Below are positions 13,332 to 39,145 of a stretch of 64,000 nucleotides of DNA, in pieces. Position 1 is the first letter of the stretch, and every line of letters begins with the position of its first letter. The translations under genes and the position numbers were made by a program. The notes beneath the pieces were generated by a model. That model worked only from the letters and a program-made list of their open reading frames with translations. It was not told the origin of the DNA and made no database searches. Source of the DNA: Achromobacter spanius (lineage in GTDB: Bacteria; Pseudomonadota; Gammaproteobacteria; Burkholderiales; Burkholderiaceae_B); contig NZ_CP121261.1 of NCBI RefSeq assembly GCF_029637605.1, forward strand, positions 4,836,001 to 4,900,000, in the 5' to 3' direction.

Positions 13332-15482
13332 TCAGGTCTGCTTGGGCGCGGGCCGAGGCTTGACCGGCCAGAAAAGCGTCGCGGGGCGCTGCCAGATGCG
13401 CTGCCGCACGCCAGCCGAGAGCGAGTCGCGGTCACCGCGGCGCAGGTCGCGCGAACGCAGCGCCACATTGAACGCCAGCGCGAAGCTGACCGCCACATTC
13501 AGCAGGCCCGTGACGGCCAGGCCGGCCACGGCCAGCCAGAACCCCTGCGTGCGCACGATGTCCCATCCCAACGTGCCGATCACCGTGCCAAGCTGGCCGG
13601 CGCTGAGCGTCACGTGGCGCACCTCCACATGTGCGCCAAGCAGTTCGACGATGGCGGGTCCCAAGCCCAACATCAGGCCCAACGACACGTTGGCCGCGAT
13701 GCCGGAAATGTTGCGTTGCCAGAACCCGGCCCAGCGCAGCGCGCCGCGCGCGCCAAGCAGTTGCCGCGCGCGGCGGCTATAGGCCATCACGTCGTGCACG
13801 CGGTGCAGGGCGAACCAGTTGTCGGCCCAACCCGCGATCAGGCTGGACAGCCACAGCAGCACGCCGGTGGCGGCAGCGTAGAGCGGGGTCGCGCCCCAGA
13901 TGGAGAACGACGCCAGCGTTTCCTCTGCCTTGTCCGCGTTGATAAGCGGCCGCTGCAGGGCATTGACCGCCACCCACTGCACCGCCCAGGCCAGCGGAAA
14001 CACCACGGCCAGGTTGCCCGCGATGGCCGCGGCATTGGACCGGATCATGGCCAGCGTGTCGTCCAGGAAGGCGTCGCGGCCCTCTGGCGTGTGGGAATCG
14101 TCCAGGCGGTGGGCCAGCGTGGGCCCGGTCATGGCGGGCTGCTTGGTGGCCAGCGAGAAGTGCGCAAAGTGGATCACCAGGAAGCCGCCCGCGTAATTCA
14201 AGGCCGTCAACAGCCCTTCGACGAGCTTGTCCAGGTGCAGTGACAGGATGAAGAACTTCAAATACACCGTGAACACCATGACGAAACCGCCGCCCAGCGA
14301 GGCTTTCAACATCGCCAGGTATTCGATGCTGTCCCGCGCGATGTAGTGTTCGCCGGTCTGGGCCGTGCGTTCCATGACCCGGCGCGCCAGTTGTGCGAAC
14401 GCCGAGCTCACCAGGTGGCGGATGCTGTTGCGCGCCTGGGTGGACCGGATCAGCTCGGTGGTCAGGTGCACGAATTTATGGCGATGCGTCGGATCCACCC
14501 AAACGTTCAGCAGCAGTTCGATGCGCGCCAGGCGCAGTTTCATGCGTTCGATCTGAAACACGACGTCGACCGACACGCCGTTCTCCGCGAGCTCGTCAAA
14601 GACGCCTTGCACGGCCAGGCGGCAGCGGTCCAGCAGCGCGCGGAACAGGTTCAGGCGGCGTGCGAAGACGTCCTCAGGCATGTCGGGCGCGCGGTCGCAC
14701 AGTTCGGCCACGGCGGGGGCCAGCGCAAAGAACGGCGAGTCCTGCACAGGACCCGGCAGGCGAGATCGAATGTCCTGGCCCAGGCCGGTGGCGCGCACCT
14801 GGCTGACCAGCACCTGGATGCTGCTGGTCAGCGCTTGTTCGATGTGTGGGGGAAACGGTTCAACGGCGGGCGCGGCGGCGAGGTCGGGCGTGGCGTCCGC
14901 GCGCGCGCCGGTGCGAAATACGGCGGACATGCGGGCCAGCGTCTCGTCGTCCAGGGCCTCGATCCATTCCACCGCGCCTCGGCGGCGGAAGATCTGCGAG
15001 AACAGGTTGAACATGTCGCCATGAGTGGGGGGCGGCGGCAGCAGGCGCGTCTGGACACGGTTCCAGAACTCGTTCCAGAAGCCGGGATGCGCGGCCACAC
15101 CCGTGTCGCACAGCAGCGAAGTCGGGTCGTTGTCGGTCATCAGGGAACGCAGCGTGGCGGCAACGCGCGCGGCACGCTCGGGGGTGTGTTCCAGCACTTG
15201 CAGCAGGTAACGCAGGCGCATGTGCTGCGGGTAGCGGGGGCTTGCCGCGGTGTCAGGGGCTGCGGCGTCGGCCTGGGCCGGGGTCAGGGTTGGAGTCTGG
15301 GCCGGGGGTTGCGGCGCGGTTTGAGTCGGAACGCCGGGGCGGTCCAGCCAGCGGCACAGGTCCACCAGCCATAAATTGCGGTCGGCCAGCGGCGCGTCCG
15401 GATCGGCGTTGGCCAGTATCACGTCCAATTGCGGCCCGCCGTGGTGCGTAGCCCGCCACTTGCGCCAAAGGGAGGTAAGCAT
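13332..15482 (-). CDS. Gcr-family 'site-specific recombinase' (membrane protein)
   Basis: A 716-residue protein of the family annotated as 'site-specific recombinase' (PF10136, Gcr), widespread in beta- and gamma-proteobacteria. The N-terminal two thirds are helical and soluble. The C-terminal third carries about five hydrophobic segments, for example AAAIAGNLAVVFPLAWAVQW and LGLMLGLGPAIVELLG. I see no tyrosine- or serine-recombinase active-site signature, so the family name is doubtful and a membrane function is more likely. The region upstream of its start contains an array of 11-bp repeats. Confidence 0.85.
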   Translation of the reverse strand: MLTSLWRKWRATHHGGPQLDVILANADPDAPLADRNLWLVDLCRWLDRPGVPTQTAPQPPAQTPTLTPAQADAAAPDTAASPRYPQHMRLRYLLQVLEHTPERAARVAATLRSLMTDNDPTSLLCDTGVAAHPGFWNEFWNRVQTRLLPPPPTHGDMFNLFSQIFRRRGAVEWIEALDDETLARMSAVFRTGARADATPDLAAAPAVEPFPPHIEQALTSSIQVLVSQVRATGLGQDIRSRLPGPVQDSPFFALAPAVAELCDRAPDMPEDVFARRLNLFRALLDRCRLAVQGVFDELAENGVSVDVVFQIERMKLRLARIELLLNVWVDPTHRHKFVHLTTELIRSTQARNSIRHLVSSAFAQLARRVMERTAQTGEHYIARDSIEYLAMLKASLGGGFVMVFTVYLKFFILSLHLDKLVEGLLTALNYAGGFLVIHFAHFSLATKQPAMTGPTLAHRLDDSHTPEGRDAFLDDTLAMIRSNAAAIAGNLAVVFPLAWAVQWVAVNALQRPLINADKAEETLASFSIWGATPLYAAATGVLLWLSSLIAGWADNWFALHRVHDVMAYSRRARQLLGARGALRWAGFWQRNISGIAANVSLGLMLGLGPAIVELLGAHVEVRHVTLSAGQLGTVIGTLGWDIVRTQGFWLAVAGLAVTGLLNVAVSFALAFNVALRSRDLRRGDRDSLSAGVRQRIWQRPATLFWPVKPRPAPKQT

Positions 15483-16762: not shown

Positions 16763-16777
16763 GTATACAATGTTCAT
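16763..16777 (+). promoter_or_regulatory. Candidate GntR operator in front of the di-iron oxidase gene
   Basis: The 15-mer gtatacaatgttcat lies 55 bases before the oxidase start and is identical to a site upstream of the aldehyde dehydrogenase gene (22133-22147). With preceding bases it reads GGTATACAA, close to the TNGT-N-ACNA palindrome bound by FCD-type GntR regulators, one of which is encoded at 18678-19394. Confidence 0.6.
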
Positions 16778-16831
16778 CATTCCCGGGCTAAACCCAGCCT
16801 GGTATCCCTCCCTACTGGACTGGAGCGCGTC

Positions 16832-17563
16832 ATGGCAGAACTGATGAACCGAGATGAATTCCGCACCGCGTTGGAAAACGCGATCAAGGGCAAGAGCGCC
16901 AATGCGTCGCCCTTTTCCATTGCCTGGGCCGAAGGCAAGCTCAGCCGCGAACATCTGTCGCGCTGGGCCGAGAACCACTACCACTATGTCGGCCCGTTCG
17001 CCGACTACCTGGGGTATCTGTACGCCCGCACGCCCGACACCTACACCGAGGCCAAGGACTTCCTGCTGGCCAATATGTATGAAGAAGAGATCGGCGGCGA
17101 CCGCCATACCGACCTGCTGATCCGCTTTGCCGAAGCCTGCGGCACGACGCGCGAACGGGTCACCAACCCGGACAACATGTCGCCCACCACGCGCGCGCTG
17201 CAAAGCTGGTGTTATGCCGTGGCCATGCGCGAAGACCCCATCGTGGCGGTGGCGGGCCTGGTGGTCGGCCTGGAATCGCAGGTGCCGTCCATTTACCGCA
17301 AGCAGACGCCGACGCTGCGCGAAAAGTACGGCTTCACCGATGAAGAAGTGGAATTCTTCGACCTGCACATCGTGTCCGACGAGATCCACGGCGAACGCGG
17401 CTATCAGATCGTGCTGGAACACGCGAACACGGTAGACCTGCAGCAGCGCTGCCTGAAGATCTGCGAAATCGGCGCCCAGATGCGGCTGCTGTACACCACG
17501 GCGCTTTACACCGACTACGTGCAGCACGAGATCAAGCTGCCCGAACTCGGGCTGGCCGCCTGA
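16832..17563 (+). CDS. Heme-oxygenase-like di-iron oxidase (HDO/PqqC-TenA fold)
   Basis: A 243-residue all-helical protein. It has the ligand set of heme-oxygenase-fold di-iron oxidases: Glu85 and His92 (E-x6-H in MYEEEIGGDRHTDLL), Glu148 (GLESQVPSIY), and His179, Asp183, His186 (H-x3-D-x2-H in FFDLHIVSDEIHGERG). PqqC, the cofactorless relative, lacks this set, so metal-dependent O2 chemistry is inferred. CADD-type and BesC/UndA-type enzymes share the arrangement, but the substrate here is unknown. ATG at 16832 follows TGGAGC. Two ferredoxin genes directly downstream could deliver electrons. Some databases would call it an 'iron-containing redox enzyme' or 'TenA family' protein. Confidence 0.82.
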   Translation: MAELMNRDEFRTALENAIKGKSANASPFSIAWAEGKLSREHLSRWAENHYHYVGPFADYLGYLYARTPDTYTEAKDFLLANMYEEEIGGDRHTDLLIRFAEACGTTRERVTNPDNMSPTTRALQSWCYAVAMREDPIVAVAGLVVGLESQVPSIYRKQTPTLREKYGFTDEEVEFFDLHIVSDEIHGERGYQIVLEHANTVDLQQRCLKICEIGAQMRLLYTTALYTDYVQHEIKLPELGLAA

Positions 17564-17636
17564 TTGTTATTGGTGTTTTCCGGGGCCGCGCCGTATAGGC
17601 GCCGCGCCCGGCCCGCCGTTCCTGGACGACAGACTC

Positions 17637-17936
17637 ATGCCTACCGTTGTATTTCATAAAGGCGGCCAGACCTACACCGACGTGGTGAAGGACAACACCA
17701 ATCTGGTGGTGCGGGCCGGCATCAAGCAGTTTCCGTATCCGCATCTGCGCTACGAATGCGGCATGGGCAAGTGCGCCAAGTGCGCGTGCCGCGTGCTGGC
17801 TGGCGCCGAGCATCTGCCGCCGGTCAACTGGAAAGAGAAAAAGCAGTTGGGCGACCGTATCGACCAGGGCTATCGGCTGGCCTGCCAACTGTGGTTGAAC
17901 AACGATGTCGAGCTGGTTCAGGACGGGGAGGCATAA
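17637..17936 (+). CDS. [2Fe-2S] ferredoxin, plant type (first copy)
   Basis: A 99-residue soluble ferredoxin. The cluster ligands are Cys41-x4-Cys46-x2-Cys49 (ECGMGKCAKCACRV) and Cys83 (RLACQLWL), the plant-type pattern. The extra Cys51 is not a standard ligand. It lies 73 bases after the oxidase gene and four bases before the 108-residue gene. Likely one-electron carrier for the di-iron oxidase, reduced by the reductase encoded at 24193-25203; this pairing is inference. Confidence 0.88.
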   Translation: MPTVVFHKGGQTYTDVVKDNTNLVVRAGIKQFPYPHLRYECGMGKCAKCACRVLAGAEHLPPVNWKEKKQLGDRIDQGYRLACQLWLNNDVELVQDGEA

Positions 17937-17940
17937 CGCC

Positions 17941-18267
17941 ATGGATGCCGTGTACGTAATCCTGACGTCCAAGCCCGGCGTGTTCCGCACCGAGGTCGGC
18001 AGCGATGTCGACATCATCGAAACGTATGACTACGCGTTCTACGGGCGGGCCTTGGCCGTGTTCTGCATTGCGCGACTGCACGGCGACACGCGCCTGATCG
18101 TGACGGAAGAAACGCCGCCCTATGTCGTCAATCGCGTGCCCGCCAAGTTTCTGGAGAAGTTCGCGTCGCTGGAGGCGGCTCGCAAGGAACTTGCCCACCT
18201 GACCCGCTTTGGCAGCATGGAATCCACCTTGACGCTGCGCCCCGCCGCCATCGTCGCAAGGCATTGA
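17941..18267 (+). CDS. Conserved-context protein of unknown function (108 residues)
   Basis: I do not recognise the family. The protein begins MDAVYVILTSKPGVFRTE, is mixed alpha/beta by appearance, contains one cysteine (AVFCIARL) and has no signal peptide or membrane segment. ATG at 17941 follows GGGAGG and is four bases after the first ferredoxin stop; the second ferredoxin starts six bases after its stop. This tight packing between two ferredoxins suggests a subunit, effector or assembly factor of the oxygenase system, analogous in position only to the small effector proteins of other multicomponent oxygenases. Confidence 0.75.
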   Translation: MDAVYVILTSKPGVFRTEVGSDVDIIETYDYAFYGRALAVFCIARLHGDTRLIVTEETPPYVVNRVPAKFLEKFASLEAARKELAHLTRFGSMESTLTLRPAAIVARH

Positions 18268-18273
18268 AAAAAC

Positions 18274-18624
18274 ATGGTTCAGATTACATTCGTCTCGAAC
18301 GGCGGCAAGGTTGCCACCGCGCCCGAGAACAGCAACCTGCTGCGCGTTTCGCTCAAGGAAAAAGGGGGCATCCCCTTCAAGTGCGGGGGCGGCCTGTGCG
18401 GCACCTGCAAGTGCCGTATCGAGGAAGGGCTGGAGCACACTGACGCGATCAAGCCCAAGGAACGCAAACACCTGCGTCCCGAAGACTTCGAGGCCGGCTA
18501 CCGCATGGCCTGCCAGACCTTTGTGAACGGCGACGTAAAGGTGTCGTGGGTGGTGCAGAACGGCAAGGGCGTGGTGGTGGGCGTGGCGTCAGACGCGGCC
18601 GACGCGCCGGTGCCATCCGCCTGA
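18274..18624 (+). CDS. [2Fe-2S] ferredoxin, plant type (second copy)
   Basis: A 116-residue ferredoxin with Cys37-x4-Cys42-x2-Cys45 (FKCGGGLCGTCKCRIEEG) and Cys80 (RMACQTF). It is only distantly similar to the first copy, and the loop between the cluster-binding cysteines and Cys80 is similar in length. The C terminus has a hydrophobic-Gly/Val extension (GVVVGVASDAADAPVPSA). It is the last gene of the short oxidase operon, followed at once by a rho-independent terminator. Confidence 0.88.
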   Translation: MVQITFVSNGGKVATAPENSNLLRVSLKEKGGIPFKCGGGLCGTCKCRIEEGLEHTDAIKPKERKHLRPEDFEAGYRMACQTFVNGDVKVSWVVQNGKGVVVGVASDAADAPVPSA

Positions 18625-18632
18625 CACGGCGG

Positions 18633-18655
18633 GCGCAACGCCCGTTGCGCTTTTT
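18633..18655 (+). terminator. Rho-independent terminator after the oxidase-ferredoxin operon
   Basis: Arms gcgcaacg and cgttgcgc are perfectly complementary and are followed by five T residues. It lies 9 bases after the second ferredoxin stop. Confidence 0.85.
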
Positions 18656-18677
18656 GCCTTATTGCTTACTGGCCTGA

Positions 18678-19394
18678 TCAGTCAGCCGCGCCATGCGGCT
18701 GCTGGGCGTCGGTGTAGGCCTTGGCCGCGTTGTGCACATGCTGGCTGGCCAGCAGGGCGGCCAAGTCGCCATTGCCGGCGATCACGGCATTCAAGATCTG
18801 CGAATGTTCATCCCAATTCGCCTTGGCGCGATGCATGTTGCTGGGCGCGAACAAGAGCGCCGTGCGGTCACGCAGCGAGCGCATCAGATCCGTCAGCACC
18901 ACGTTGCCGGCAATGGTGGCCAGCATTTCGTGAAACTGGGAGTTCAGCGCCAGGAACTTGTCCAACTGTTCGCCGCGCGCGGCTTCGGTGCCTTCGCGCA
19001 GGAATTCCTGCAAGCGTTCCACGGTTTTGGCGTCGCGGCGTTGCGCCGCCAGCTTGGCGTTCAGCCCTTCCAGCGTGGCGCGCACTTCCACCATGTCGTA
19101 GGCGATGGCGTCCGACAGTACCGATACCGATGCGCCGCGCCGCGGCTCGATGGTGACCAGCCCTTCGGCGGCCAATGCGCGCAGCGCTTCGCGCACGGGG
19201 ATGCGCGACACGCCCATTTCCTCGGACAAGCGGCCTTCCACCAAGCGGTCACCGGGGGTGAATTCCCCGCTGAGTATGCGTTCGCGCAGCTTGTCCCGGA
19301 TGACGGCGAACAACTGCGGATGCTGCTCGCCGATCTTCAGCGGGGCGGAAGACGGCGTCTCTACGGCTTGCGGGCTGACGGGAGAAGTGGTCAT
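18678..19394 (-). CDS. GntR family regulator with FCD domain
   Basis: A 238-residue regulator. The N-terminal winged helix includes LSGEFTPGDRLVEGRLSEEMGVSRIPVREALRALAAEGLV (core: VSRIPVREALRALAAEG). The C-terminal FCD ligand domain has the metal-binding pattern D/N..H...H expected for FadR-type regulators, including the segments LNSQFHEML and ANWDEHSQIL. I chose ATG 19394; an ATG at 19430 is possible but would place the start in the candidate operator. It is convergent with the oxidase operon and probably controls the surrounding 16.7-25.2 kb block through GTATAC-type sites, including its own. The inducer is unknown. Confidence 0.88.
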   Translation of the reverse strand: MTTSPVSPQAVETPSSAPLKIGEQHPQLFAVIRDKLRERILSGEFTPGDRLVEGRLSEEMGVSRIPVREALRALAAEGLVTIEPRRGASVSVLSDAIAYDMVEVRATLEGLNAKLAAQRRDAKTVERLQEFLREGTEAARGEQLDKFLALNSQFHEMLATIAGNVVLTDLMRSLRDRTALLFAPSNMHRAKANWDEHSQILNAVIAGNGDLAALLASQHVHNAAKAYTDAQQPHGAAD

Positions 19395-19427
19395 GGCGAG
19401 CAGATATGGATTAATGGATACAGTCCG

Positions 19428-19440
19428 CATTGTATTACCG
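19428..19440 (-). promoter_or_regulatory. Candidate autoregulatory GntR site
   Basis: On the minus strand this reads cggtaatacaatg, one base longer than cggtatacaatg upstream of the di-iron oxidase. It sits 34 bases before the chosen gntR start. Confidence 0.45.
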
Positions 19441-19542
19441 GGTGTAGCCGAATGCCGCGAGGGCAAGCGCGCATTGCGGCGCCGGACACCAGGGCTTCCG
19501 GCATCGGGGCGGCCAACGTCGAGGCGGGCGGGGCTGCCAACA

Positions 19543-20283
19543 TCAGGCGCCCCAGAAGGCCTTGGCCAGCACCCCCACGGCGCTTAGTGCGCATACCGCA
19601 AGCAGCACGCTGCGCACGGCATGCGGCGGCAGCCGGTTGCGCAAGCGATTCGAGACCGCAAAGCCCGCCAGCAGAAAAGGCGCCAGGCTAAGCGCCAGCC
19701 CAACGTGGTAACCCGTGTACCGCTTGGCTAGCGCCAGCATGGCCAGAGAGAAAATCGACCCCAGGAACAGCACCACGCCCAGCGTGGCCCGTAGTTGGGG
19801 CGGCGCGGTGTGTTGCAACACGATGGCGATGGGCGGGGCGCCCACCGACGTCATCGTTCCCATGATGCCGGAGGCCACGCCGGCCCCGGACACCCGGCCC
19901 GGCGTGGCGGTAAAGCGCAAGCCTGCCACGCTCAGGGCCACGGCCACGAGGATCACGCCGGCGAACAGCACGCCCAGGGTCTGGGGCGCAAAGCGCGCCA
20001 TCGCGTAGATGGCCAGCAGCGTGCCGACCGCGCGGCCGGCCAGCGCATAAGACACGGAAGACCAGTCGATAAAGGTCCGCTCGCGCAAGGCGGTCAACAG
20101 TGAGATGAAGCCGCCCAGCGTCAGCAAGGGGCCGGGCGCCAGTTGCGGAAAGAACATTGCCGCCACCGGGGCCGCGAACATGGCGAAGCCGATGCCGCCC
20201 ACGCCTTGCGCCACGGCGGCGCCGAACACCACCACGGCCATGGCGGCGTAATGCCAAAAATCGGGGAAAGACAGGGCGGACAT
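19543..20283 (-). CDS. TauE/SafE family permease (sulfite exporter-like)
   Basis: A 246-residue membrane protein with about eight hydrophobic segments. The two family repeats are visible, the N-terminal FGAAVAQGVGGIGFAMFAAP and the C-terminal GIMGTMTSVGAPPIAIVLQH. TauE/SafE proteins are linked to export of sulfite, sulfoacetate or other anions, and many are uncharacterised. It is divergent from the large permease gene at 20509 and shares the regulated intergenic region, so it probably moves a substrate or product of the oxidase pathway. Confidence 0.82.
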   Translation of the reverse strand: MSALSFPDFWHYAAMAVVVFGAAVAQGVGGIGFAMFAAPVAAMFFPQLAPGPLLTLGGFISLLTALRERTFIDWSSVSYALAGRAVGTLLAIYAMARFAPQTLGVLFAGVILVAVALSVAGLRFTATPGRVSGAGVASGIMGTMTSVGAPPIAIVLQHTAPPQLRATLGVVLFLGSIFSLAMLALAKRYTGYHVGLALSLAPFLLAGFAVSNRLRNRLPPHAVRSVLLAVCALSAVGVLAKAFWGA

Positions 20284-20300
20284 GGGCTAAGCCTATTTAT

Positions 20301-20306
20301 GTATAC
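20301..20306 (-). promoter_or_regulatory. GTATAC motif before the TauE/SafE gene
   Basis: The hexamer GTATAC (context tatgtatacgata) is centred about 20 bases upstream of the TauE/SafE start. It resembles the shared GntR site but only the core matches. Confidence 0.35.
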
Positions 20307-20425
20307 GATAGTCAGGCGTGAATTTCGGATGCAGTGAGCCCCGGTACCCAAAGGCAAGGGTAAACCCGTAATTTTCGGGCGAGATTCATGTAATTTTCAG
20401 AATTATCGGTTTCCCTAGGCACTGC

Positions 20426-20458
20426 ATATTTCGATTGGTATGCCTGCAAACGAAATAT
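20426..20458. promoter_or_regulatory. Inverted repeat in the divergent permease region
   Basis: Perfect 8-base arms atatttcg (20426-20433) and cgaaatat (20451-20458) are separated by 17 bases. They lie just before the GTATAC motif at 20460 and 51-83 bases from the permease start. Possibly a second regulator site. Confidence 0.35.
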
Positions 20459-20459
20459 A

Positions 20460-20465
20460 GTATAC
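20460..20465 (+). promoter_or_regulatory. GTATAC motif before the large permease gene
   Basis: Context tagtataccgac, 43 bases before the start codon. Core match to the shared GntR-site motif of this block. Confidence 0.35.
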
Positions 20466-20508
20466 CGACTGTGGCGACCTAACAGCCACGTCACAAGGGG
20501 AATCACGC

Positions 20509-22041
20509 ATGCAAGCGGACGTCGTGCTCACTGCTGCTCACTGGATGTATCTGATCAGCGTGGCCGCCATCATCCTGACGATGATTTTGCGGGCCAATGT
20601 GGTGGTGCCATCGGTAATCGGCACTTTTCTGGTGGTGCTGGCCATCACCGGCAGTCCGATCAGCGCGCTGATCGGCATCTTTTCGGCCAGCTTCGTGGCG
20701 GCCAAGGAATTGTTCAACATTTTCCTGGTCATCACGTTCATGACCGCCCTGCTGAATTCGCTGAAGACCTTGCAGGCGGACGTGCGCATGGTGCAGCCGT
20801 TTCGGCGCGTGATGCGGGGCGGCCATTCGGCATTCATCATCATCGCGCTCTGTACCTATGTGCTGTCTCTGTTCTTCTGGCCCACGCCCGCCGTGCCGCT
20901 GGTATCCGCCATCTTGCTGCCCGCCGCCATCGCGGCCGGCCTGCCGCCCCTGGCGGGCGCCATGGCGATTGCCATTGCCGGCCAAGGCATGGCCCTGTCG
21001 TCCGATTATGTGATTGGCGTGGCGCCCAGCATCAGCGCCAAGGCCGCGGGCGCGGCGGTCAGCGCGGCCGTGGTGGCCGACCGTGCGCTGGTGTTGTCGC
21101 TGATAACCGGCGCCGTGGCGCTGACCGCGGCCTATCTGCTGATCCGCAAGCACATCGTTCCGGCCAACGCGGGGCTGTTGGACGCCTGGCAGGCGCGTGC
21201 CCAGGACGGCAGCCTGGCAAGCATCGAGCAATCTGGCTCATTCGACAAAGCCGAACTTGCGCGCGGCACCATGGGCACCGACCCGGCCTTGCCCAACGGC
21301 GTCACCGTCAGCGATGAAGAACGCCGCCGTGTGCGCTGGTCCAAGACCTTCGCCGTGGTGACGCCGCTGGCCTTCCTGACGGTGATCGGGGTGATGGTGC
21401 TGCCCCGCCTGTTCCCATCGCTGCCCGCCTTGCGCGGCGGTGACGCGGCGGCGCTGGTGGGCGGTGTCGCCTTCGTGGTGATGATGCTGGTGACGCTGGC
21501 CGCCGAAGGCCCGCGCAAGATGCTGGATGTGTGCCCCGAGCACGTGACGGATGGCTTTGTCTTCGCGTTCAAGGCCATGGGATCGGTCCTGCCGATTGCC
21601 GGCTTCTTCTTTATCGGCGCCAACGAGACAGCGGCGCAGATCCTGGGCGTTTCGCAGGCGCAGGCCCCTGGGCTGCTGTTCGAAGTGATCTCGGCCGGTC
21701 AGCACCTGATTCCCGAAAACCACTTCCTGGTCGCGTTCGGCGTCTTGCTGGTGGGGATGATCACCGGCATCGACGGCTCTGGTTTTGCCGGGTTGCCGCT
21801 CACCGGCACCTTGTCGGGCGCGCTGGGTCCGGTGGTGGGCGTGGACGCGGCCACCCTGGCCGCCGTGGGCCAGATGGGGGCGGTGTGGACGGGCGGGGGC
21901 ACGCTGATCGCGTGGTCTTCCCTGATTGCGGTGGCCGGCTTCGCCCGCGTGAACGTCCTGTCGCTGGTGCGGGCGCTATTGCTGCCGGTACTGCTGGCGC
22001 TGTCCGTGTCCACCATTTGCGCGGTGCTGATCTGGGGTTGA
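20509..22041 (+). CDS. Ion-transporter-superfamily permease (substrate unknown)
   Basis: A 510-residue membrane protein with about 11-12 hydrophobic segments in two halves, and a long hydrophilic central loop (about residues 220-280) rich in charged residues. Its overall look is that of the ion-transporter superfamily (NhaD, CitM and gluconate-type permeases), including a re-entrant-like GIDGSGFAGLPLTGTLSG and GQGMALSSDYVIGVAPS. ATG at 20509 follows AAGGGGAA. Position in a catabolic block suggests uptake of an organic anion, but this is inference. A strong terminator follows. Confidence 0.75.
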   Translation: MQADVVLTAAHWMYLISVAAIILTMILRANVVVPSVIGTFLVVLAITGSPISALIGIFSASFVAAKELFNIFLVITFMTALLNSLKTLQADVRMVQPFRRVMRGGHSAFIIIALCTYVLSLFFWPTPAVPLVSAILLPAAIAAGLPPLAGAMAIAIAGQGMALSSDYVIGVAPSISAKAAGAAVSAAVVADRALVLSLITGAVALTAAYLLIRKHIVPANAGLLDAWQARAQDGSLASIEQSGSFDKAELARGTMGTDPALPNGVTVSDEERRRVRWSKTFAVVTPLAFLTVIGVMVLPRLFPSLPALRGGDAAALVGGVAFVVMMLVTLAAEGPRKMLDVCPEHVTDGFVFAFKAMGSVLPIAGFFFIGANETAAQILGVSQAQAPGLLFEVISAGQHLIPENHFLVAFGVLLVGMITGIDGSGFAGLPLTGTLSGALGPVVGVDAATLAAVGQMGAVWTGGGTLIAWSSLIAVAGFARVNVLSLVRALLLPVLLALSVSTICAVLIWG

Positions 22042-22063
22042 GCTTCGGATAGTGCCAATCAAA

Positions 22064-22086
22064 GAGGGGCCTGCGGGCCCCTTTTT
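22064..22086 (+). terminator. Rho-independent terminator after the permease gene
   Basis: Arms ggggcc and ggcccc flank a four-base loop and are followed by five T residues, 22 bases after the stop. It separates the permease from the aldehyde dehydrogenase unit, which therefore needs its own promoter. Confidence 0.88.
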
Positions 22087-22132
22087 CACAAGCCTGCCTG
22101 GGGTTTCCACGTATCGTTCTTCAAAGATTAAA

Positions 22133-22147
22133 GTATACAATGTTCAT
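22133..22147 (+). promoter_or_regulatory. Candidate GntR operator in front of the aldehyde dehydrogenase gene
   Basis: gtatacaatgttcat, identical over 15 bases to the site upstream of the di-iron oxidase gene at 16763-16777. It lies 58 bases before the preferred GTG start. Confidence 0.6.
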
Positions 22148-22205
22148 AAATTACCTCAGACGCCCCATCTCGGGCCAAGCCCGCACCGACAAAGGAAGCG
22201 CTCCC

Positions 22206-23666
22206 GTGGACGATCTTTCGCAGCAAACCTTCATGAACCATATCGGCGGCGCCTGGGAGCCCAGCGCCACCGGCCGCACGGCCCCCAACATCAACCCCGC
22301 CGACACCAGCGACATCGTGGGTAACTTCCCGGTATCGGACGCCGACGACGCGCGGCGCGCGGTGCAGGCGGCTGACGCGGCCTTTGCCGCCTGGCGCGAC
22401 ACGCCGATCTCGAAGCGGGCGGCCATTCTGTTTCGCGCGGCGCAATACCTGGAAGACCACGCCGACCAATTCGCCCGCGAACTGACGCGCGAAGAGGGCA
22501 AGGGCCTGAACCTGGCCAAGGACGAAGTCATGCGCTCGGCGCAGACGATCCGTTTCTATGCCGTCGAAGGGCAGAGCTTTACCGGCGAAACCTTCGTCAA
22601 TGATGATCCGGACATGGTGGTCTACAGCCAGCGCGAGCCGCTGGGCGTGGCGGCCGTGATATCGCCCTGGAACTTCCCCATTTCCATCCCGGCCCGCAAG
22701 ATCGCGCCCGCGCTCATCGCCGGCAACACGGTGGTGTTCAAGCCGTCGTCGGACGCGCCGTTATCGGGCTACCGCCTGACCGAAGCCTTTGTGCAGGCCG
22801 GCTTGCCCGCGGGCGTGCTGAACCTGGTTGTCGGCCCGGCGGCGGCGGTGGGCGCCGCCATCACCGGCGCCCCGGCGGTGCGCGCCATCTCGTTTACCGG
22901 GTCCACCGCAGCGGGTGAACAGATCCACCGCAGCGCCGGCCTGACGACGCGCACGCAGATGGAACTGGGCGGCAAGAACCCGCTGATCGTGCTGGCCGAC
23001 GCCGACCTGGACCGCGCCGTGGACCTGGCGGTCAAGGGCGGCTTTTCGCTGAGCGGCCAGGCCTGCACGGGGACCAGCCGCGTACTGGTGGACGCCAAGG
23101 TGCGCCAGGCGTTCACCGAAAAACTGGTCGCGCGCGTCAAGGCGCTGACCATCGGCAATGGCCTGGAAGGCAACTTCGATCTGGGGCCGCTGGCCACCCG
23201 CAAGCAGTTGGACAATGTGCTGAGCTACGTGGCGATCGGCAAGGAAGAGGCCACGCACCTGTGTGGCGGCGAGCAACTGACCGGCCCGGGCTTTGACGGC
23301 GGTTACTACGTCACGCCCGCGCTCTTCACCGACGTGACCCAGCAGATGCGTATCGCGCGCGAAGAGATCTTCGGGCCGGTGATCGCGCTGATTGAAGTCG
23401 ATGGCTACGACGACGCCATCGCCAAGGCCAATGACACGGAATACGGCCTGTCCGCCGCCATCGCCACCACCGACGCGCGTTACGCACACCGCTTCGCGCG
23501 CGACATCCAGGCGGGCACGGTGAAGATCAACCGCACCACCACCGGCAACCTGATCAACGCGCCGTTTGGCGGCCTGAAGCATTCCAGCACGTCCACGTTC
23601 CGGGAATCCGGCCGGGTGGGCCTGGAGTTCTACACGCAGATCAAAACCATCTACCGCGCGGGCTGA
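22206..23666 (+). CDS. NAD(P)+-dependent aldehyde dehydrogenase
   Basis: A 486-residue member of the aldehyde dehydrogenase superfamily, oxidising an aldehyde to an acid. Visible are the cofactor segment SPWNFPISIPARKIAPAL, the Gly-rich FTGSTAAGEQI, the general-base glutamate in MELGGKN and the nucleophilic cysteine in LSGQACTGTS. It resembles semialdehyde dehydrogenases of the succinate- or 2-oxoglutarate-semialdehyde type, but the substrate is not certain. I chose GTG 22206 with AAAGGA upstream; an ATG at 22140 lies inside the operator copy. Starts an operon with the GlcG-like and reductase genes. Confidence 0.9.
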   Translation: MDDLSQQTFMNHIGGAWEPSATGRTAPNINPADTSDIVGNFPVSDADDARRAVQAADAAFAAWRDTPISKRAAILFRAAQYLEDHADQFARELTREEGKGLNLAKDEVMRSAQTIRFYAVEGQSFTGETFVNDDPDMVVYSQREPLGVAAVISPWNFPISIPARKIAPALIAGNTVVFKPSSDAPLSGYRLTEAFVQAGLPAGVLNLVVGPAAAVGAAITGAPAVRAISFTGSTAAGEQIHRSAGLTTRTQMELGGKNPLIVLADADLDRAVDLAVKGGFSLSGQACTGTSRVLVDAKVRQAFTEKLVARVKALTIGNGLEGNFDLGPLATRKQLDNVLSYVAIGKEEATHLCGGEQLTGPGFDGGYYVTPALFTDVTQQMRIAREEIFGPVIALIEVDGYDDAIAKANDTEYGLSAAIATTDARYAHRFARDIQAGTVKINRTTTGNLINAPFGGLKHSSTSTFRESGRVGLEFYTQIKTIYRAG

Positions 23667-23700
23667 ACGCGCGCCATCAATCACTGAAGAGGCTACGAAT

Positions 23701-24180
23701 ATGAAGCAGATCTACCGCCTGGAACTGGAAGAAGCGCGCGTGATGGTGCGTGCCGCCATGGCCAAGTCCGAAGCCATCGGCGTGCTGGAATCCATTTGCA
23801 TCGTGGACGACGGCGGCTACCCCATCGCCTTGGAACGCATGGACGGTGCGCGCATCACCGGCCCGCAGATCGCCTGGAACAAGGCCTTTACCGCCGCCGG
23901 CCACAAGCGCTCGACGCACTTGTTCAACACGCCGCCCAATGGCCCCGCGCTGCCCGGCAACGAAGCCTTCGGCATCCAATGGAGCTTTGACGGCAAGTTC
24001 GCCGTGTTCGTGGGCGGCTTTCCCATCGTGGTGAACGACGAGGTGATCGGCGGCGTGGGCTTGAGCGGCGGCAACGGCGAACAGGACACGCAGGCGGGTC
24101 TGGCCGCGTTGGCGGCCTTGGCCGAACTGCTGGAGCCGCGCGGCATGAAAGTGCTGGTGCAGGCCGACATCAAGAAATAA
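23701..24180 (+). CDS. GlcG/HbpS family protein
   Basis: A 159-residue protein of the GlcG/HbpS (PduO C-terminal-like) family. The signature is visible as VDDGGYPIALERMDGARI, followed by KAFTAAGHKRST and VVNDEVIGGVGLSGGNGEQD. Family members bind heme, cobalamin-related or small organic ligands, or accompany glycolate and other oxidation pathways; most are uncharacterised. No signal peptide, so cytoplasmic. It lies 34 bases after the aldehyde dehydrogenase and 12 bases before the reductase in one operon. Its role in the pathway is unknown. Confidence 0.85.
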   Translation: MKQIYRLELEEARVMVRAAMAKSEAIGVLESICIVDDGGYPIALERMDGARITGPQIAWNKAFTAAGHKRSTHLFNTPPNGPALPGNEAFGIQWSFDGKFAVFVGGFPIVVNDEVIGGVGLSGGNGEQDTQAGLAALAALAELLEPRGMKVLVQADIKK

Positions 24181-24192
24181 GCGAGGCCCGTC

Positions 24193-25203
24193 ATGGCATA
24201 CCGCGTGCATATCCTGCAGACCGGCGCAGCCTTCGTTGCCGGCGCCGACGAATCGCTGTTGGAAGCCGCCGAACGCGCGGCGGTGAAGCTGCCGCACGAA
24301 TGTACCTTTGGCGGCTGCGGCACCTGCCGCATCAAGCTGGAATCCGGCGCGGTGCGCTATGACGAATTCCCGATGGCGTTGACGCCGGAAGAAGCCGCCG
24401 AAGGCTACGCGCTGGCTTGCCAGGCGCGCGCCGAAAGCGATCTTTGCATCAGCGTGCCCAGCAGCCGCCAGGTGTTTCCCGAGCCGCGCCAGCTTGCCGC
24501 CACCGTGCACCGCATCGACGCCTATACGGACGACATCATCCACCTGACGCTGGCGCTGCCTGATGGCGGGCTGGACTATGTGCCGGGCCAGTACATGAAC
24601 GTGCTGCTGCCGGATGGCGAAACGCGCAGTTTTTCCATGGCATCGGTGCCCTCGGATGGGCTGGTCGATTTTCACGTGCGCCGGATTCCCGGTGGCCGTT
24701 ACACCGACCTATGGCTGGGGCAAGCGCAACCCGGCGCGGCCTTGACGATCGAAGCGCCGTTGGGGGTGTTCAGCTATCACGAGGAAGATTGGCGCCCGCT
24801 CATCATGGTGGCCACGGGCACCGGCATCGCACCCATCAAGGCCATTCTGGAATCCTTGCTGGACAAGGAAGACTGCCCGCCCGTGACCCTGTATTGGGGC
24901 ATGCGCACGCAGGCTGACCTGTATCTGCAAGATGAAATCGCGGGCTGGGCGGGACGCTTGTACGAATTCAATTTCGTGCCCGTGCTGTCGCGCGCGGACG
25001 CAAGCTGGCAAGGCCGTCGCGGCCATGTGCAGGACGCCGTGGCGCAAGATCACGACGACCTGTCCGAACACGCGATCTACCTGTGCGGCGCGCCCGCCAT
25101 GATTCAAGACGCCAAGCACATGCTGGCCGGACGCGGCGCCAGCCTGGACTACATATACGCCGACAGCTTCACCTTCCAGCACGCGCTGGAGCCGGCGGGC
25201 TGA
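24193..25203 (+). CDS. Ferredoxin-NAD(P)H reductase with N-terminal [2Fe-2S] domain
   Basis: A 336-residue oxygenase reductase of the phenol hydroxylase/benzoate dioxygenase reductase type. The N-terminal plant-type ferredoxin has Cys37-x4-Cys42-x2-Cys45 and Cys76. The FAD domain has RSFSMAS, which binds the flavin, and the C-terminal NAD(P)-binding domain has GTGIAPIKA and CGAPAMI. It would pass electrons from NAD(P)H through FAD and [2Fe-2S] to the separate ferredoxins and the di-iron oxidase. Last gene of the operon, convergent with the stress protein gene. Confidence 0.9.
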   Translation: MAYRVHILQTGAAFVAGADESLLEAAERAAVKLPHECTFGGCGTCRIKLESGAVRYDEFPMALTPEEAAEGYALACQARAESDLCISVPSSRQVFPEPRQLAATVHRIDAYTDDIIHLTLALPDGGLDYVPGQYMNVLLPDGETRSFSMASVPSDGLVDFHVRRIPGGRYTDLWLGQAQPGAALTIEAPLGVFSYHEEDWRPLIMVATGTGIAPIKAILESLLDKEDCPPVTLYWGMRTQADLYLQDEIAGWAGRLYEFNFVPVLSRADASWQGRRGHVQDAVAQDHDDLSEHAIYLCGAPAMIQDAKHMLAGRGASLDYIYADSFTFQHALEPAG

Positions 25204-25666: not shown

Positions 25667-25872
25667 GTTGCCTCTCCTTTAGGAAAAGGAATGTCGAGCA
25701 ACGGCGAAATCAGTATAGGCCCGGCCCTGCCGGCAATCCAGTCCCGCAGAAGGACGAGGCGCGCGGCGCCAGGGCTTCCCATGCCCTGGTGATAGGCATA
25801 TATTGTCAGCGCGTCATCCGGCAGTTCCCTCGTGGCTTTCAGCTTCATGCGTTGCAACACGGAGAACGGTTC

Positions 25873-27258
25873 ATGCGTCGACTGCAAGCGTGGTTAATTT
25901 CTTGTTTGTGTCTGGGGCTGGCGGTCTGCATGCCCGCGGCGGCGCAAACCAAGCTGGACAACGGGCAATTGGATCAGTTGATGGCGCCGGTGGCGCTGTA
26001 CCCCGATTCATTGCTGTCGCAGATCCTCATGGGGGCTACCTACCCCGACGACGTCGCGGCCGCCGCCAAATGGTCGGCGGCGCATACCTCGGAATCAGGT
26101 GACCAGGCGGTCAAGGCGGTCGAAGGCGAGGCCTGGGATCCCAGCGTGAAATCATTGGTGGCGTTCCCGTCGGTCATGGACATGATGGGCCGCCAACCTG
26201 ACTGGGTGAAGTCCGTGGGCGATGCCTTCCTGGCGCAGCCGGATGCCGTGATGGATTCGGTCCAGCGCTTGCGCACGCAGGCGCAAAAGGCCGGCAACCT
26301 GAAAAGCACGCCGCAGCAGACGGTCACCACCAACACCACCAACGAGAAGACGGTGGTCGTGATCGAGCCGGCTGATCCGCAGGTGGTCTACGTGCCCAGT
26401 TACAACCCCACCGTGGTCTACGGGGCGTGGGCTTACCCGTCCTACCCGCCTTACTACTATCCGCCGCCGCCTGGGTCCGTCTTTGGGACCGCGCTGGTGT
26501 CCGGCATCGGTTTCGGCTTGGGCGTGGCGGCGGTGAATTCGATGTGGGGCGGGTTTGACTGGGGACACAACGACGTCGACATCGACGTCAACCGCTACAA
26601 CAACGTCAACGTCAACCAGCGGATCAACAACGCCAACAACAATAATGTGTCCTGGAAGCACAACCCGCAGAACCGTGGCAACACGCCTTATGCGGACCAG
26701 GCCAACCGCCAGCGCTTTGATAGCCAGCGGCAACAGGGCCTGCAGAACCGGCAGGCGGGTCAGCGGCCGGGGCAAGGTCAGGGCGGACGCGTGGCTGGCG
26801 CCGCACCTGCGCCGAACTCCCGCGACGCCGCGCGTGATCGCGCTGCGCAGTCGTTCCAGGGACGCACCGGGGAGCCCATTGCGGGCCATGCGCAACCCGG
26901 CGCAGGGCGCGGCCAGGGCGCCGGCACCGCAGGGCGAAATGGCCAAGGCGCGGCAGGACGGTCAGACGGCCAGGGGGCTCGCAGCACACAGGCCGGCACC
27001 CATAGCCCGCGCTCTTCAAGTGTGTCCACGCAGAACCACCAGGCCGCGGCCCAGCGCCAGCGCGCGGATGAAAGCGCTGCCCGTGATCGGGCCCGGGCGG
27101 CCAACAGCAACAACGCACTGCGCGATTCCGGCAACGGCGACCGCATGCGCCAGCAAAGCCACCGAAGCGACATGAGCCGGGGCGGGGGTGGAGGCGGCGT
27201 CCATCGCGGCGGCGGCGGGCACGCGGGTGGCGGCGGCCATTTCGGCGGTCGGAGGTAG
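25873..27258 (+). CDS. DUF3300 family exported protein with Gly/Gln/Arg-rich tail
   Basis: A 461-residue exported protein. A signal peptide (residues 1 to about 24, ending MPAAAQT) precedes the DUF3300 domain, which starts LDQLMAPVALYPDSLLSQIL. A proline/tyrosine-rich segment (PSYPPYYYPPPPGS) follows, then Asn-rich repeats and a long low-complexity tail rich in Gly, Gln and Arg ending GGGGHFGGRR. Family function is unknown. ATG at 25873 has ggagaacggttc upstream. It is directly followed, four bases after its stop, by a DUF2950 gene; the pair recurs in many proteobacteria. Confidence 0.85.
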   Translation: MRRLQAWLISCLCLGLAVCMPAAAQTKLDNGQLDQLMAPVALYPDSLLSQILMGATYPDDVAAAAKWSAAHTSESGDQAVKAVEGEAWDPSVKSLVAFPSVMDMMGRQPDWVKSVGDAFLAQPDAVMDSVQRLRTQAQKAGNLKSTPQQTVTTNTTNEKTVVVIEPADPQVVYVPSYNPTVVYGAWAYPSYPPYYYPPPPGSVFGTALVSGIGFGLGVAAVNSMWGGFDWGHNDVDIDVNRYNNVNVNQRINNANNNNVSWKHNPQNRGNTPYADQANRQRFDSQRQQGLQNRQAGQRPGQGQGGRVAGAAPAPNSRDAARDRAAQSFQGRTGEPIAGHAQPGAGRGQGAGTAGRNGQGAAGRSDGQGARSTQAGTHSPRSSSVSTQNHQAAAQRQRADESAARDRARAANSNNALRDSGNGDRMRQQSHRSDMSRGGGGGGVHRGGGGHAGGGGHFGGRR

Positions 27259-33504: not shown

Positions 33505-36500
33505 ATGGTCAACATGAATCGCCGCCAGTTCTTCAAGGTGACGGGTGCAACCCTGGCAGGCTCCAGCCTGGCATTGCTGGGGGTAGCCCCCGGCACGGCC
33601 ATGGCTGAGGTCCGTCAGTACAAACTTGCGCGCATGACTGAAACGCGCAACACCTGTCCCTACTGTTCGGTCGCCTGTGGCTTGCTGATGTACGGTCTGG
33701 GCGATGGGTCCAAGAACGCGCGTGCCAGCATCATGCACATTGAGGGCGACCCTGATCACCCCGTCAACCGCGGCACGCTCTGTCCGAAGGGTGCGGCGCT
33801 GATTGACTTCATCCACAGCCCCAACCGCCTGAAGTACCCGGAATATCGGGCGCCCGGTTCGGACAAGTGGCAGCGGATGTCCTGGGACGAAGCACTCACC
33901 CGCATCACCAAACTCATGAAAGCCGACCGCGATGCGAACTTCGTCGAGAAGACCGCGGACGGCAAAACGGTTAACCGGTGGCTGACCACCGGCATGCTGG
34001 CCGCCTCGGCAAGCAGCAACGAGGTGGGCTACGTCACGCACAAGACCGTGCGCAGCATGGGGATGTTGGCATTCGATAATCAAGCACGTGTCTGACACGG
34101 CCCGACGGTGGCAGGTCTTGCCCCGACGTTTGGCCGTGGAGCGATGACGAACCATTGGGTCGACATCAAGAACGCGGACGTAGTGTTGATCATGGGCGGC
34201 AATGCCGCCGAGGCCCACCCCTGCGGGTTCAAGTGGGTAACCGAAGCCAAGGCCCATAACAAGGCCAAGCTGATCGTCGTGGATCCGCGCTTTACGCGCT
34301 CGGCGTCCGTGGCGGACTTCTACGCGCCCATACGCACCGGCACCGACATCATCTTCCTGGGTGGCGTCATCAAGTACCTGTTGGATAACGACAAGATCCA
34401 GCACGAGTACGTGCGCAACTACACCGACTTTTCCTTCATCGTGCGCGAGGATTTTGCGTTCGACGCGGGCCTGTATTCGGGCTACAACGCCGACAAGCGC
34501 ACCTACGACAAGGCAAGCTGGGACTACGAGCGCGGCGACGACGGCTACGTCAAGACGGACCCCACGCTGGCGCATCCGCGCACCGTCTACCAACTGCTGA
34601 AGAAGCACTATTCGCGCTACACCGAAGACATGGTCGAGCGCGTGTGCGGCACGCCGAAGGACAAGTTCCTGAAGGTGTGCGAGATGCTGGCGTCCACCGC
34701 CAGCCCCAACCGCGCGGCCACGGTGCTGTACGCGCTGGGTTGGACGCAGCATTCCATTGGTTCGCAGATCATCCGCACCGGCGCCATGGTGCAGTTGCTG
34801 CTGGGCAACATCGGCATCGCGGGCGGCGGCATGAATGCGCTGCGCGGGCACTCGAACATCCAGGGCCTGACCGACCTGGGGCTGATGTCCAACCTGCTGC
34901 CGGGCTACCTGACGCTGCCCAACGAAGCCGAACAGGAGTACGGCAAGTACATCGAAACCCGCACGCTGAAGCCGCTGCGCCCCAACCAGCTCAGCTACTG
35001 GCAGAACTACAACAAGTTCCACGTCAGCCTGATGAAGGCCTGGTGGGGCCAGGCCGCCACGGCGGAAAACAATTGGGCCTTCGACTACCTGCCCAAGCTG
35101 GACAAGCTCTACGACATGCTGCAAGTCTACGAGCTCATGGTCCAGGGCAAGATGAACGGCTACATCGCGCAGGGCTTCAACCCGCTGGCGGCCGCGCCCA
35201 ACAAGTCCAAGATGAACGACGGCTTCGCCAAGCTGAAGTACCTGATCATCATGGATCCGCTCGTCACCGAGACCTCGGAATTCTGGCGTAACGCGGGCGA
35301 GCTCAACGATGTGGACCCGTCCCAGATCCAGACCGAAGTCTTCCGCCTGCCCACCACCTGTTTTGCCGAGGAAGACGGCGCGCTGGTGAACTCCGGGCGC
35401 TGGTTGCAGTGGCACTGGAAGGGCGCCGAGCCCCCCGGCGAAGCCAAGAGCGACATCGAAATCATGTCGCTCATCTTCACGCGCCTGCGCAAGATGTACC
35501 AGGACGAAGGCGGCACGTATCCCGACCCCATCGTCAACCTGTCCTGGCCGTACGCCAACCCGCAGAACCCCACCGCGGAAGAGCTGGCCAAGGAATATTC
35601 CGGCCGCGCGCTCGCGGACCTTGTCGACCCCAAGGACCCCACCAAAGTCACTCGCAAGGGCGGTGAGCAATTGGCGGGCTTTGCGGAACTGCGTGATGAC
35701 GGCTCCACGGCCAGCGGCTGTTGGATCTTCGCCGGCGCCTGGGGCCCCGGTGGCAACCTGATGGCCCGGCGCGACAACAGCGACCCCACCGGCATCGGGC
35801 AGACCCTGAACTGGGCCTGGTCATGGCCGGCCAACCGCCGCATCCTGTACAACCGCGCGTCTTGCGATGTAACGGGCAAGCCGTTCGACCCCAGCCGCAG
35901 GCTGATCAGCTGGAACGGCAAGGCCTGGACGGGTGTCGACATTCCCGACTTCAAGGGTGACGAAAACCCGGCAGGCGGCATGGGTCCGTTCATCATGAAC
36001 CCGGAGGGCGTGGCGCGCTTCTTCGCGCGGGCAAGCATGGCCGAAGGGCCGTTCCCCGAACACTACGAACCCTTCGAGACGCCACTGGGCTACAACCCGC
36101 TGTACCCGAAGGCCAAGGGCGTGACCAGCAACCCGGCCGCGCGCGTCTTCAAGGACGACCTGGCCGCGATGGGCACGGTGGAAAACTTCCCGTATGTGGC
36201 CACCACCTATCGCTTGACCGAGCATTTCCACTACTGGACCAAGAACGTCGAGATCAATGCGATTCTCCAGCCGGAGCAATTCGTGGAGATCGGCGACGCG
36301 CTGGCCAAGGAACTGGGCATCGCCAACGGGTCGCGGGTGAAAGTGACGTCCAACCGTGGCTACATCAAGGCGGTGGCGCTGGTCACCAAGCGCTTGCGTG
36401 CGTTGACCATCGAGGGCAAGACGGTGCACCACGTGGGCATTCCCATTCACTGGGGCTTTGTGGGCCTGGCCAGACCCGGCTTCCTTGCCAACACCCTGAC

Positions 36501-36573
36501 GCCATTCGTGGGCGACGGCAATTCCCAGACACCGGAATTCAAGTCGTTCCTGGTCAAGGTCGAAAAGGTATAG
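33505..36573 (+). CDS. fdnG: Formate dehydrogenase-N alpha subunit, selenocysteine-containing
   Basis: Catalytic subunit that oxidises formate to CO2 on the periplasmic side with a molybdenum bis-MGD cofactor and one [4Fe-4S] cluster. The gene reads through an in-frame TGA at 34093-34095, residue 197: the flanking [21 protein letters not shown] matches the active site of the known selenoenzyme. Total 1022 residues with Sec. The N terminus [17 protein letters not shown] is a twin-arginine signal. CPYCSVACG begins the Fe-S motif. A hairpin with the GGTCT loop directly follows the UGA. It is followed by fdnH and fdnI, and fdhE/selA/selB downstream. Automatic pipelines may split it at the TGA. 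Confidence 0.96.
34093..34135 (+). promoter_or_regulatory. Bacterial SECIS element of fdnG
   Basis: Starts at the UGA codon. The apical stem ggca/tgcc (34110-34113 and 34119-34122) carries the loop ggtct, the GGTCT known to bind SelB. The lower arms ggcc (34099-34102) and ggcc (34132-34135) can pair. The whole fits in the space expected for bacterial SECIS hairpins just downstream of UGA. Confidence 0.85.
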
Positions 36574-39144: not shown

Positions 39145-39145
39145 C

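Follow-up and report, generated by a model that had tools for sequence, protein, structure and literature searches.

Within a 64,000-nucleotide stretch of the Achromobacter spanius genome (NCBI RefSeq assembly GCF_029637605.1, contig NZ_CP121261.1, positions 4,836,001 to 4,900,000; hereafter the window), we examined an 8.5-kb cluster of ten genes built around a heme-oxygenase-like di-iron oxidase/oxygenase (HDO). The best reading of this cluster, which we hold with moderate confidence from the sequence evidence, is that it encodes a catabolic multicomponent HDO system under the control of a GntR/FCD regulator. The remaining genes encode two plant-type ferredoxins (FdA and FdB), a 108-residue protein lying between them (DUF108), a TauE/SafE-family permease (TauE), a 510-aa membrane protein (below, the permease), an aldehyde dehydrogenase (ALDH), an HbpS-like protein and a flavin- and [2Fe-2S]-containing reductase (Red). 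An earlier annotation made from the letters of this DNA alone (the original prediction) had listed the ten genes and proposed that electrons pass from the reductase through the ferredoxins to the oxidase, whose aldehyde product would go to the dehydrogenase. All ten genes are indeed open reading frames at the positions listed in Table 1, and eight of them can be given Pfam names. The proposal is supported in part, by the linkage, metal ligands, ferredoxin cysteines and upstream sites reported below and by the lack of an identified second oxygenase in the conserved neighbouring families; its gene set stands but is extended outside Achromobacter by an OCD-family reductase and hydrolases, which could not be seen from one genome.

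Linkage of the cluster across relatives

A contig scan matched 517 stretches, 494 of them with an HDO relative, and the best 80 stretches supplied the 79 loci retained here, whose HDOs are at least 85% identical (27 have Achromobacter in their titles and 52 belong to other genera, including Cupriavidus, Variovorax, Paraburkholderia, Bordetella, Belnapia, Bradyrhizobium and Kaistia); locus counts throughout cover these close HDO relatives from the best 80 stretches, not all 494. To score gene presence we applied a separate identity threshold to each gene and used the 63 loci that span 20.5 kb or more (23 Achromobacter, 40 others), the 16 shorter loci being excluded. All ten genes were found in one order in 23/23 Achromobacter loci. 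In the 40 loci from other genera, the HDO and the HbpS-like gene were present in 40, FdA, DUF108, FdB and GntR in 39 each, the permease in 36, ALDH in 35, Red in 34 and TauE in 27, while a UspA gene that neighbours the cluster was present in none. The trio FdA-DUF108-FdB was contiguous, with DUF108 in the middle, in all 76 loci that hold it, and the order ALDH-HbpS-Red was kept in 64/64. Linkage thus persists across 17 gene arrangements, Achromobacter's included (some differing solely by one missing gene), which argues for a functional unit. The original prediction had named this linkage beforehand as the test on which it could fail, and the genes proved to be linked in related genomes; in the laboratory strain Cupriavidus metallidurans CH34, for example, HDO, FdA, DUF108, FdB, GntR, permease, ALDH, HbpS and Red lie in one stretch. 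Since ALDH and Red are not universal, the strict core consists of the HDO, FdA-DUF108-FdB, the HbpS-like protein and GntR, together with the permease (36/40). For L059, the sole full-length locus lacking the trio, these three genes lie at another place in the genome, with an OCD gene and a 69%-identical GntR. Among 36 genomes of the same genus, one (G007) lacked the HDO, and it also lacked the permease. Two loci, L092 (Kaistia) and L053 (Cupriavidus), carry two copies of this HDO subfamily within 20 kb.

The low counts in whole-genome samples indicate a patchy distribution. The HDO was found in 5/398 genomes sampled from the phylum (E ≤ 1e-40) and in 10/399 of the order (E ≤ 1e-30), where each best match was at least 81% identical and one genome held a second copy of 33%; DUF108 was found in 1/369 genomes sampled from the class, namely the genome studied here. 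In the class of genome G344, 11/385 genomes had a match (E ≤ 1e-30), one at 87%, one at 46% and nine at 32–39%, and the whole-genome samples contained no HDO between 46% and 81% identity.

Metal ligands and constraint on the HDO

HDO residues E85, H92, E148, H179, D183 and H186 align with E81, H88, E142, H174, D178 and H181 of CADD, which we take to be its metal ligands. The protein therefore has, at the CADD positions, the three histidines and three carboxylates of the HDO superfamily (3H/3C). These di-metal ligand positions were invariant in 79/79 loci, in support of the predicted di-iron oxidase, and were kept in 14/14 sequences down to 25% identity, an alignment with 18 invariant columns. 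As a predicted member of the superfamily, the protein would adopt its seven-helix heme-oxygenase fold, bind two metals and activate O2. Of its 243 residues, 153 were invariant in the 79 loci, and its median identity outside Achromobacter (89%) was the highest in the cluster, a rank that is favoured by the choice of loci on HDO similarity; the other medians were 82% for HbpS, 77% for FdA, 75% for the permease, 73% for ALDH, 72% for FdB, 61% for GntR, 58% for Red, 54% for TauE and 50% for DUF108. Judged from these alignments, the strongest constraint among the cluster genes is on the HDO, and since Red, TauE and DUF108 reach 50–58% in the same loci, recent transfer alone is insufficient to account for its conservation. 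The genome holds two further PF14518 matches above the cut-off, at 471745-472248 and 4264452-4264781.

Ferredoxins, DUF108 and the reductase

The two plant-type ferredoxins of the original prediction hold up well: both match PF00111 and have the CX4CX2C motif plus a distant cysteine of plant-type [2Fe-2S] ferredoxins, and their cluster cysteines are intact in every locus covered (FdA C41, C46, C49 and C83 in 77/77; FdB 37, 42 and 45 in 76/76 and 80 in 75/75). DUF108 gave no Pfam, NCBIfam or credible PDB match, the best E-value of its profile against the PDB being 1.1. Some NCBI records label it 'ferredoxin', a label that probably stems from its neighbours, because the protein has no Fer2 match and the window copy contains a single cysteine; it may instead be a coupling or effector protein. 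Red has the domain order Fer2, FAD, NAD of BenC-type reductases and scores 218 bits against the model NF040810 for BenC, the benzoate dioxygenase reductase, below the cut-off of 430. A flavin/Fe2S2 reductase lies near the HDO in 34/40 non-Achromobacter and 23/23 Achromobacter full-length loci. Gene content, ligands and cysteines together suggest an electron chain from Red through the ferredoxins to the HDO.

The sequence suggests an arrangement in several units (Table 1). The genes of the unit HDO-FdA-DUF108-FdB are separated by 73, 4 and 6 bases and those of ALDH-HbpS-Red by 34 and 12 bases; GntR and TauE lie on the opposite strand, and the permease forms a unit of its own.

Table 1 Genes and operator-like sites of the HDO cluster (window coordinates)
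Feature	Position	Strand	Basis or remark
Operator-like site GTATACAATGTTCAT, upstream of HDO	16763..16777	+	identical 15 bases at 22133
HDO, heme-oxygenase-like di-iron oxidase/oxygenase, 243 aa	16832..17563	+	PF14518 Haem_oxygenas_2, 1.6e-38
FdA, plant-type [2Fe-2S] ferredoxin, 99 aa	17637..17936	+	PF00111
DUF108, 108 aa	17941..18267	+	outside Pfam and NCBIfam families; between FdA and FdB
FdB, second plant-type [2Fe-2S] ferredoxin, 116 aa	18274..18624	+	PF00111
GntR/FCD regulator, start codon uncertain	18678..19466	-	PF00392 + PF07729
TauE/SafE-family permease	19543..20283	-	PF01925, 1.1e-17
GTATAC, TauE side of the TauE-permease intergenic region	20301..20306	+	sequence scan
Site GTATACTAT, upstream of permease (GTATAC at 20460)	20457..20465	-	sequence scan
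510-aa membrane protein, presumed importer	20509..22041	+	uncharacterised family
Operator-like site GTATACAATGTTCAT, upstream of ALDH	22133..22147	+	overlaps mechanical ALDH ATG 22140
ALDH, aldehyde dehydrogenase, 486 aa from GTG 22206	22206..23666	+	PF00171, 3.9e-165; mechanical ORF from 22140
HbpS/GlcG/EfgA-family protein, 159 aa	23701..24180	+	PF03928, 1.2e-31
Red, Fd-FAD-NAD reductase, BenC type, 336 aa	24193..25203	+	Fer2 + FAD_binding_6 + NAD_binding_1

Operator-like sites upstream of the units

The related upstream motifs noted in the original prediction could be reduced to GTATAC sites common to the HDO, TauE/permease and ALDH units. The copies at 16763, 20301, 20460 and 22133 are four of the six in the 64-kb window, a total reached in 1/100 shuffles. 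The longer form GTATACWAT occurs four times in the 6.47-Mb genome, three of them in the cluster, and a reversed control pattern occurs once; an 11-base pattern allowing two mismatches showed no excess over chance (six found, with 14/100 shuffles reaching six). Across loci, and against a background rate of 0.07 per 250 bases, GTATAC lay upstream of the HDO in 71/79, the permease in 73/73, TauE in 47/56, GntR in 29/60 and ALDH in 35/69, and upstream of FdB in 0/78, Red in 0/73 and HbpS in 2/76; the permease and TauE often have one intergenic region in common. A divergent HDO locus from an alphaproteobacterial sample (HDO 43–46% identical, with an HbpS and a GntR of its own) has two GTATAC copies directly before the HDO, the sole copies in 19.9 kb, and two were present in 3/200 shuffles. 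These positions suggest that GntR binds the GTATAC sites.

One of the sites also bears on a gene start. The mechanically called ALDH start, ATG 22140, overlaps the operator-like site; a start at GTG 22206, preceded by AAAGGAAG, would yield a protein of 486 aa, as long as several ALDH orthologues, and appears the more likely of the two.

ALDH, the HbpS-like protein and the permease

The best NCBIfam match of ALDH was the alpha-ketoglutaric semialdehyde dehydrogenase model (alpha-KGSADH, NF042993), at 540.8 bits against a cut-off of 770. In the HbpS-like protein, K61 (76/76 covered loci), S122 (75/75) and D129 (75/75) are the equivalents of EfgA K57, S114 and D121, which, in the available part of PMC8153426, are thought to bind formaldehyde and are described as largely conserved across DUF336 homologues. 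Because of that wide conservation, the match tips the balance only slightly from heme towards a small aldehyde as ligand, and the likeness to the formaldehyde sensor EfgA (DUF336/HbpS family) is a weak one; unlike EfgA, the HbpS-like gene is linked to an HDO. The heme-binding His18 of PduO-C aligns with Arg13 of the HbpS-like protein, a position that is Arg in 73/76 loci, Cys, Gln and Trp in one each, and His in none, so that a 'heme-degrading' label appears doubtful. The permease gave no Pfam, NCBIfam or PDB match and, by profile, no credible relative in the PDB; the named entries among the 120 homologues listed are called 'hypothetical', 'membrane protein' or 'transporter'. We presume that it imports the substrate.

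Neighbours outside Achromobacter and distant HDO loci

In the neighbour survey, 28 protein families were present in at least 4 of the 52 non-Achromobacter loci. No oxygenase other than the HDO was found among the identified families, that is, the 28 less three short ones (two unscanned and one unmatched). A Rieske-type dioxygenase annotation does occur at a distance of about 10 kb from the HDO on a single Caballeronia plasmid, and in L107 the gene divergent to the HDO encodes what reads by eye as a Rieske-like protein. The OCD-family reductase, whose solved relatives include imine and ketimine reductases, was present in 33/40 non-Achromobacter loci and 0/23 Achromobacter loci, and an amidase, a GGT-family protein and an isochorismatase-fold protein in 19/40, 7/40 and 7/40 non-Achromobacter loci, respectively. 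The best OCD match in the genome studied here is only 31–32% identical, which points to a function that is inessential in Achromobacter or replaced. At the edges of Cupriavidus loci such as L052, L055 and L068 we found the C-terminal part of a sulfoacetaldehyde acetyltransferase (Xsc; 7 loci), a phosphate acetyltransferase (Pta; 9) and a second TauE (8). These genes form a sulfonate locus, which may be a mere neighbour, since it was seen in Cupriavidus only.

Eight more distant HDO loci (L154-L161; 27–39% identity), drawn from the nine low-identity matches in the class of G344, have other surroundings. Asp/Glu racemases accompany the HDO in all four of L154-L157, and isochorismatase-fold hydrolases, UbiD and Amidohydro_2 proteins in three of these, with AMP-binding enzymes and short-chain dehydrogenases as well (families named on L154-L156); the gene content of this neighbourhood suggests a separate catabolic pathway that has yet to be described. 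L158 encodes hydantoinases A and B, nearest to caprolactamase alpha though below the cut-off, L160 and L161 have several HDO-family copies beside molybdenum hydroxylase genes (families named on L161), and L159 has nothing telling among its neighbours. Such neighbourhoods hint at the catabolism of amides, lactams or N-heterocycles.

A proposed course of the reaction

Under the catabolic multicomponent reading, the GntR/FCD regulator would sit on GTATAC at the HDO, permease/TauE and ALDH promoters and be released by the substrate or an intermediate. The permease might bring in a small acid, probably a nitrogenous one (an amide, lactam or N-heterocycle). Red, reduced by NAD(P)H, would then pass electrons to FdA and/or FdB, and these in turn to the HDO. 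Once back in its di-ferrous state, the HDO would activate O2 and oxidise or cleave the substrate, with DUF108 acting as a docking or effector protein. The product would be, or yield, a semialdehyde for oxidation by ALDH, and the HbpS/EfgA-like protein could bind or buffer a reactive small product. Outside Achromobacter, further steps before or after the HDO may be contributed by an imine reductase of the OCD family and by an amidase, a GGT-family hydrolase or an isochorismatase-fold hydrolase. The more specific proposal, in which the HDO is driven by the reductase, both ferredoxins and an effector DUF108 to open or cleave an amide, a lactam or an N-heterocycle and represents one branch of a wider, so far unrecognised catabolic HDO group, is offered tentatively, as a possibility that we would not call probable.

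Relation to known systems

About a dozen HDOs have been validated, and their roles lie mainly in the biosynthesis of natural products or cofactors, according to the available part of a 2026 review (PMC13108848). The original prediction knew of no described pathway with this exact gene set, and the literature search, with most subscription journals outside its scope, likewise returned no match; a dedicated redox partner for an HDO, however, has a precedent in MboB, which with MboA is presented in the accessible text of PMC13185094 as possibly the first such dedicated pair. The mangotoxin acetylenase MboA/MboB resembles the present cluster in pairing its HDO with an NAD(P)H-flavin-[2Fe-2S] reductase dedicated to it and in its set of three histidines and three carboxylates, but it is biosynthetic, and the gene names given for the six-gene Mbo cluster in that text include no separate ferredoxins, permease, ALDH or GntR (PMC13185094). 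No chain named MboA was among the ten PDB sequences that matched the HDO at E ≤ 0.001. By analogy, bacterial multicomponent monooxygenases and Rieske oxygenase systems also lead electrons from a reductase through a ferredoxin to a non-heme iron oxygenase, in some cases perhaps helped by a small effector, and Red resembles BenC; the oxygenase here, however, would be an HDO, neither ferritin-like nor Rieske, and DUF108 is unmatched in Pfam and NCBIfam. If the catabolic reading is true, the cluster would be a more elaborate, catabolic variant of the dedicated HDO-redox partner arrangement so far reported mainly in natural-product biosynthesis, would extend the HDO superfamily to catabolism and would provide a testable case of protein-controlled O2 activation.

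Weighing the alternatives

Several observations weigh against a catabolic multicomponent HDO system. Red is missing near the HDO in 6/40 loci and ALDH in 5/40, and a search for Red in six genomes (E ≤ 1e-40) came back empty in two. The eight distant HDO loci had no open reading frames matching FdA, DUF108, FdB or Red (E ≤ 1e-5). The operator-like site may belong to another regulator too, because the fourth genomic GTATACWAT copy, GTATACAAT at 6058588, precedes a gene that reads by eye as a 5-hydroxyisourate hydrolase; in the L059 genome, the single GTATAC before the unlinked trio is supported by its position alone, as 73/200 shuffles of the 19.9 kb hold at least one. Finally, MboA aside, described HDOs work without a dedicated partner, as far as the available parts of PMC13108848 and PMC13185094 extend. 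Alternatively, the HDO may draw on generic reductants, with the ferredoxins, DUF108 and Red priming or repairing its metal site or serving another enzyme rather than feeding every turnover. The HDOs studied so far did not need a protein effector for O2 activation (PMC13108848, available part), and the loci without Red count for this alternative too. Yet the trio is present in 39/40 loci and always contiguous, the conserved neighbours that could be identified offer the ferredoxins no second oxygenase to serve, and MboB is reported in the accessible text of PMC13185094 not to be replaceable by mediators, so that we regard this explanation as rather unlikely. It is also unlikely, and slightly more so, that the cluster is a pathway already described under another name, such as one for pyridine carboxylates or homarine. 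The amidohydrolases, UbiD and Asp/Glu racemases beside distant HDO relatives and the resemblance of ALDH to alpha-ketoglutaric semialdehyde dehydrogenase would fit such a pathway. The homarine operon is reportedly homABCDER, with N-methylglutamate as the product; a conserved homarine pathway, cited in PMC13390433 to Nature Microbiology of 2026, is counted here in favour of this reading. The literature searched, which left most subscription journals outside its coverage, contained no matching gene set for dipicolinate, homarine or trigonelline, nor any match for the set as a whole.

A sulfonate substrate would have the HDO cleave a C-S bond or act near one, TauE export sulfite, and the aldehyde be sulfonated or desulfonated. 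TauE is present in 27/40 non-Achromobacter and 23/23 Achromobacter loci, an SsuA-family binding protein in 6/40 (80 bits, below the cut-off of 163.5), and the Cupriavidus edges add Xsc, Pta and the second TauE; but the latter three were seen in that genus alone, where they stand beside genus-level neighbours such as CobS/CobT, TauE belongs to a broad family and is missing in 13/40 loci, and the idea has a low probability in our view. Far less credible are two readings suggested by homology labels. The HDO could be a cofactor-making enzyme, either a self-sacrificing 4-aminobenzoate (pABA) synthase of the CADD type or a pyrroloquinoline quinone (PQQ) synthase: its nearest solved structures by sequence are the CT610/CADD 4-aminobenzoate synthase (9e-18) and PqqC, the JGI calls homologues PQQ synthase, and with CADD/4-aminobenzoate synthase (CT610, NePabS) it shares one Pfam family and the six ligand positions. 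CADD Tyr27, Tyr43, Tyr141 and Lys152, however, align with HDO Ser29, Trp45, Leu147 and Gln158, Tyr27 and Lys152 presumably being the sacrificed residues; the scores against TIGR04305 (pABA synthase; 99.6 bits, cut-off 200) and TIGR02111 (PqqC; 51.7 bits, cut-off 240) fall short; and a permease, an ALDH and a regulator are ill-suited to cofactor synthesis. This candidate was rejected as very improbable. Heme uptake and breakdown is hardly to be expected either, even though the Pfam names point to heme and a heme-oxygenase fold and an HbpS protein would here meet a ferredoxin/reductase donor, ferredoxins or reductases being the source of electrons for heme oxygenases. It was discarded on the six retained dimetal ligand positions and the arginine in place of the PduO-C heme histidine, and ALDH, amidase and OCD partners would sit poorly with it.

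Other features of the window

Elsewhere in the window, a selenocysteine set occupies 34090-42639. It comprises a SECIS_3 element (34090-34148), a formate dehydrogenase-N-type alpha open reading frame (34108-36573) with its Fe-S subunit (36584-37483), SelA (39101-40576), SelB (40573-42507) and tRNA-Sec (42544-42639). A large SpecificRecomb-family protein (PF10136, 707 bits), named 'site-specific recombinase' and with membrane-like stretches when read by eye, is encoded at 13332-15482, and a DUF3300 protein (PF11737) with a long low-complexity tail at 25789-27258.

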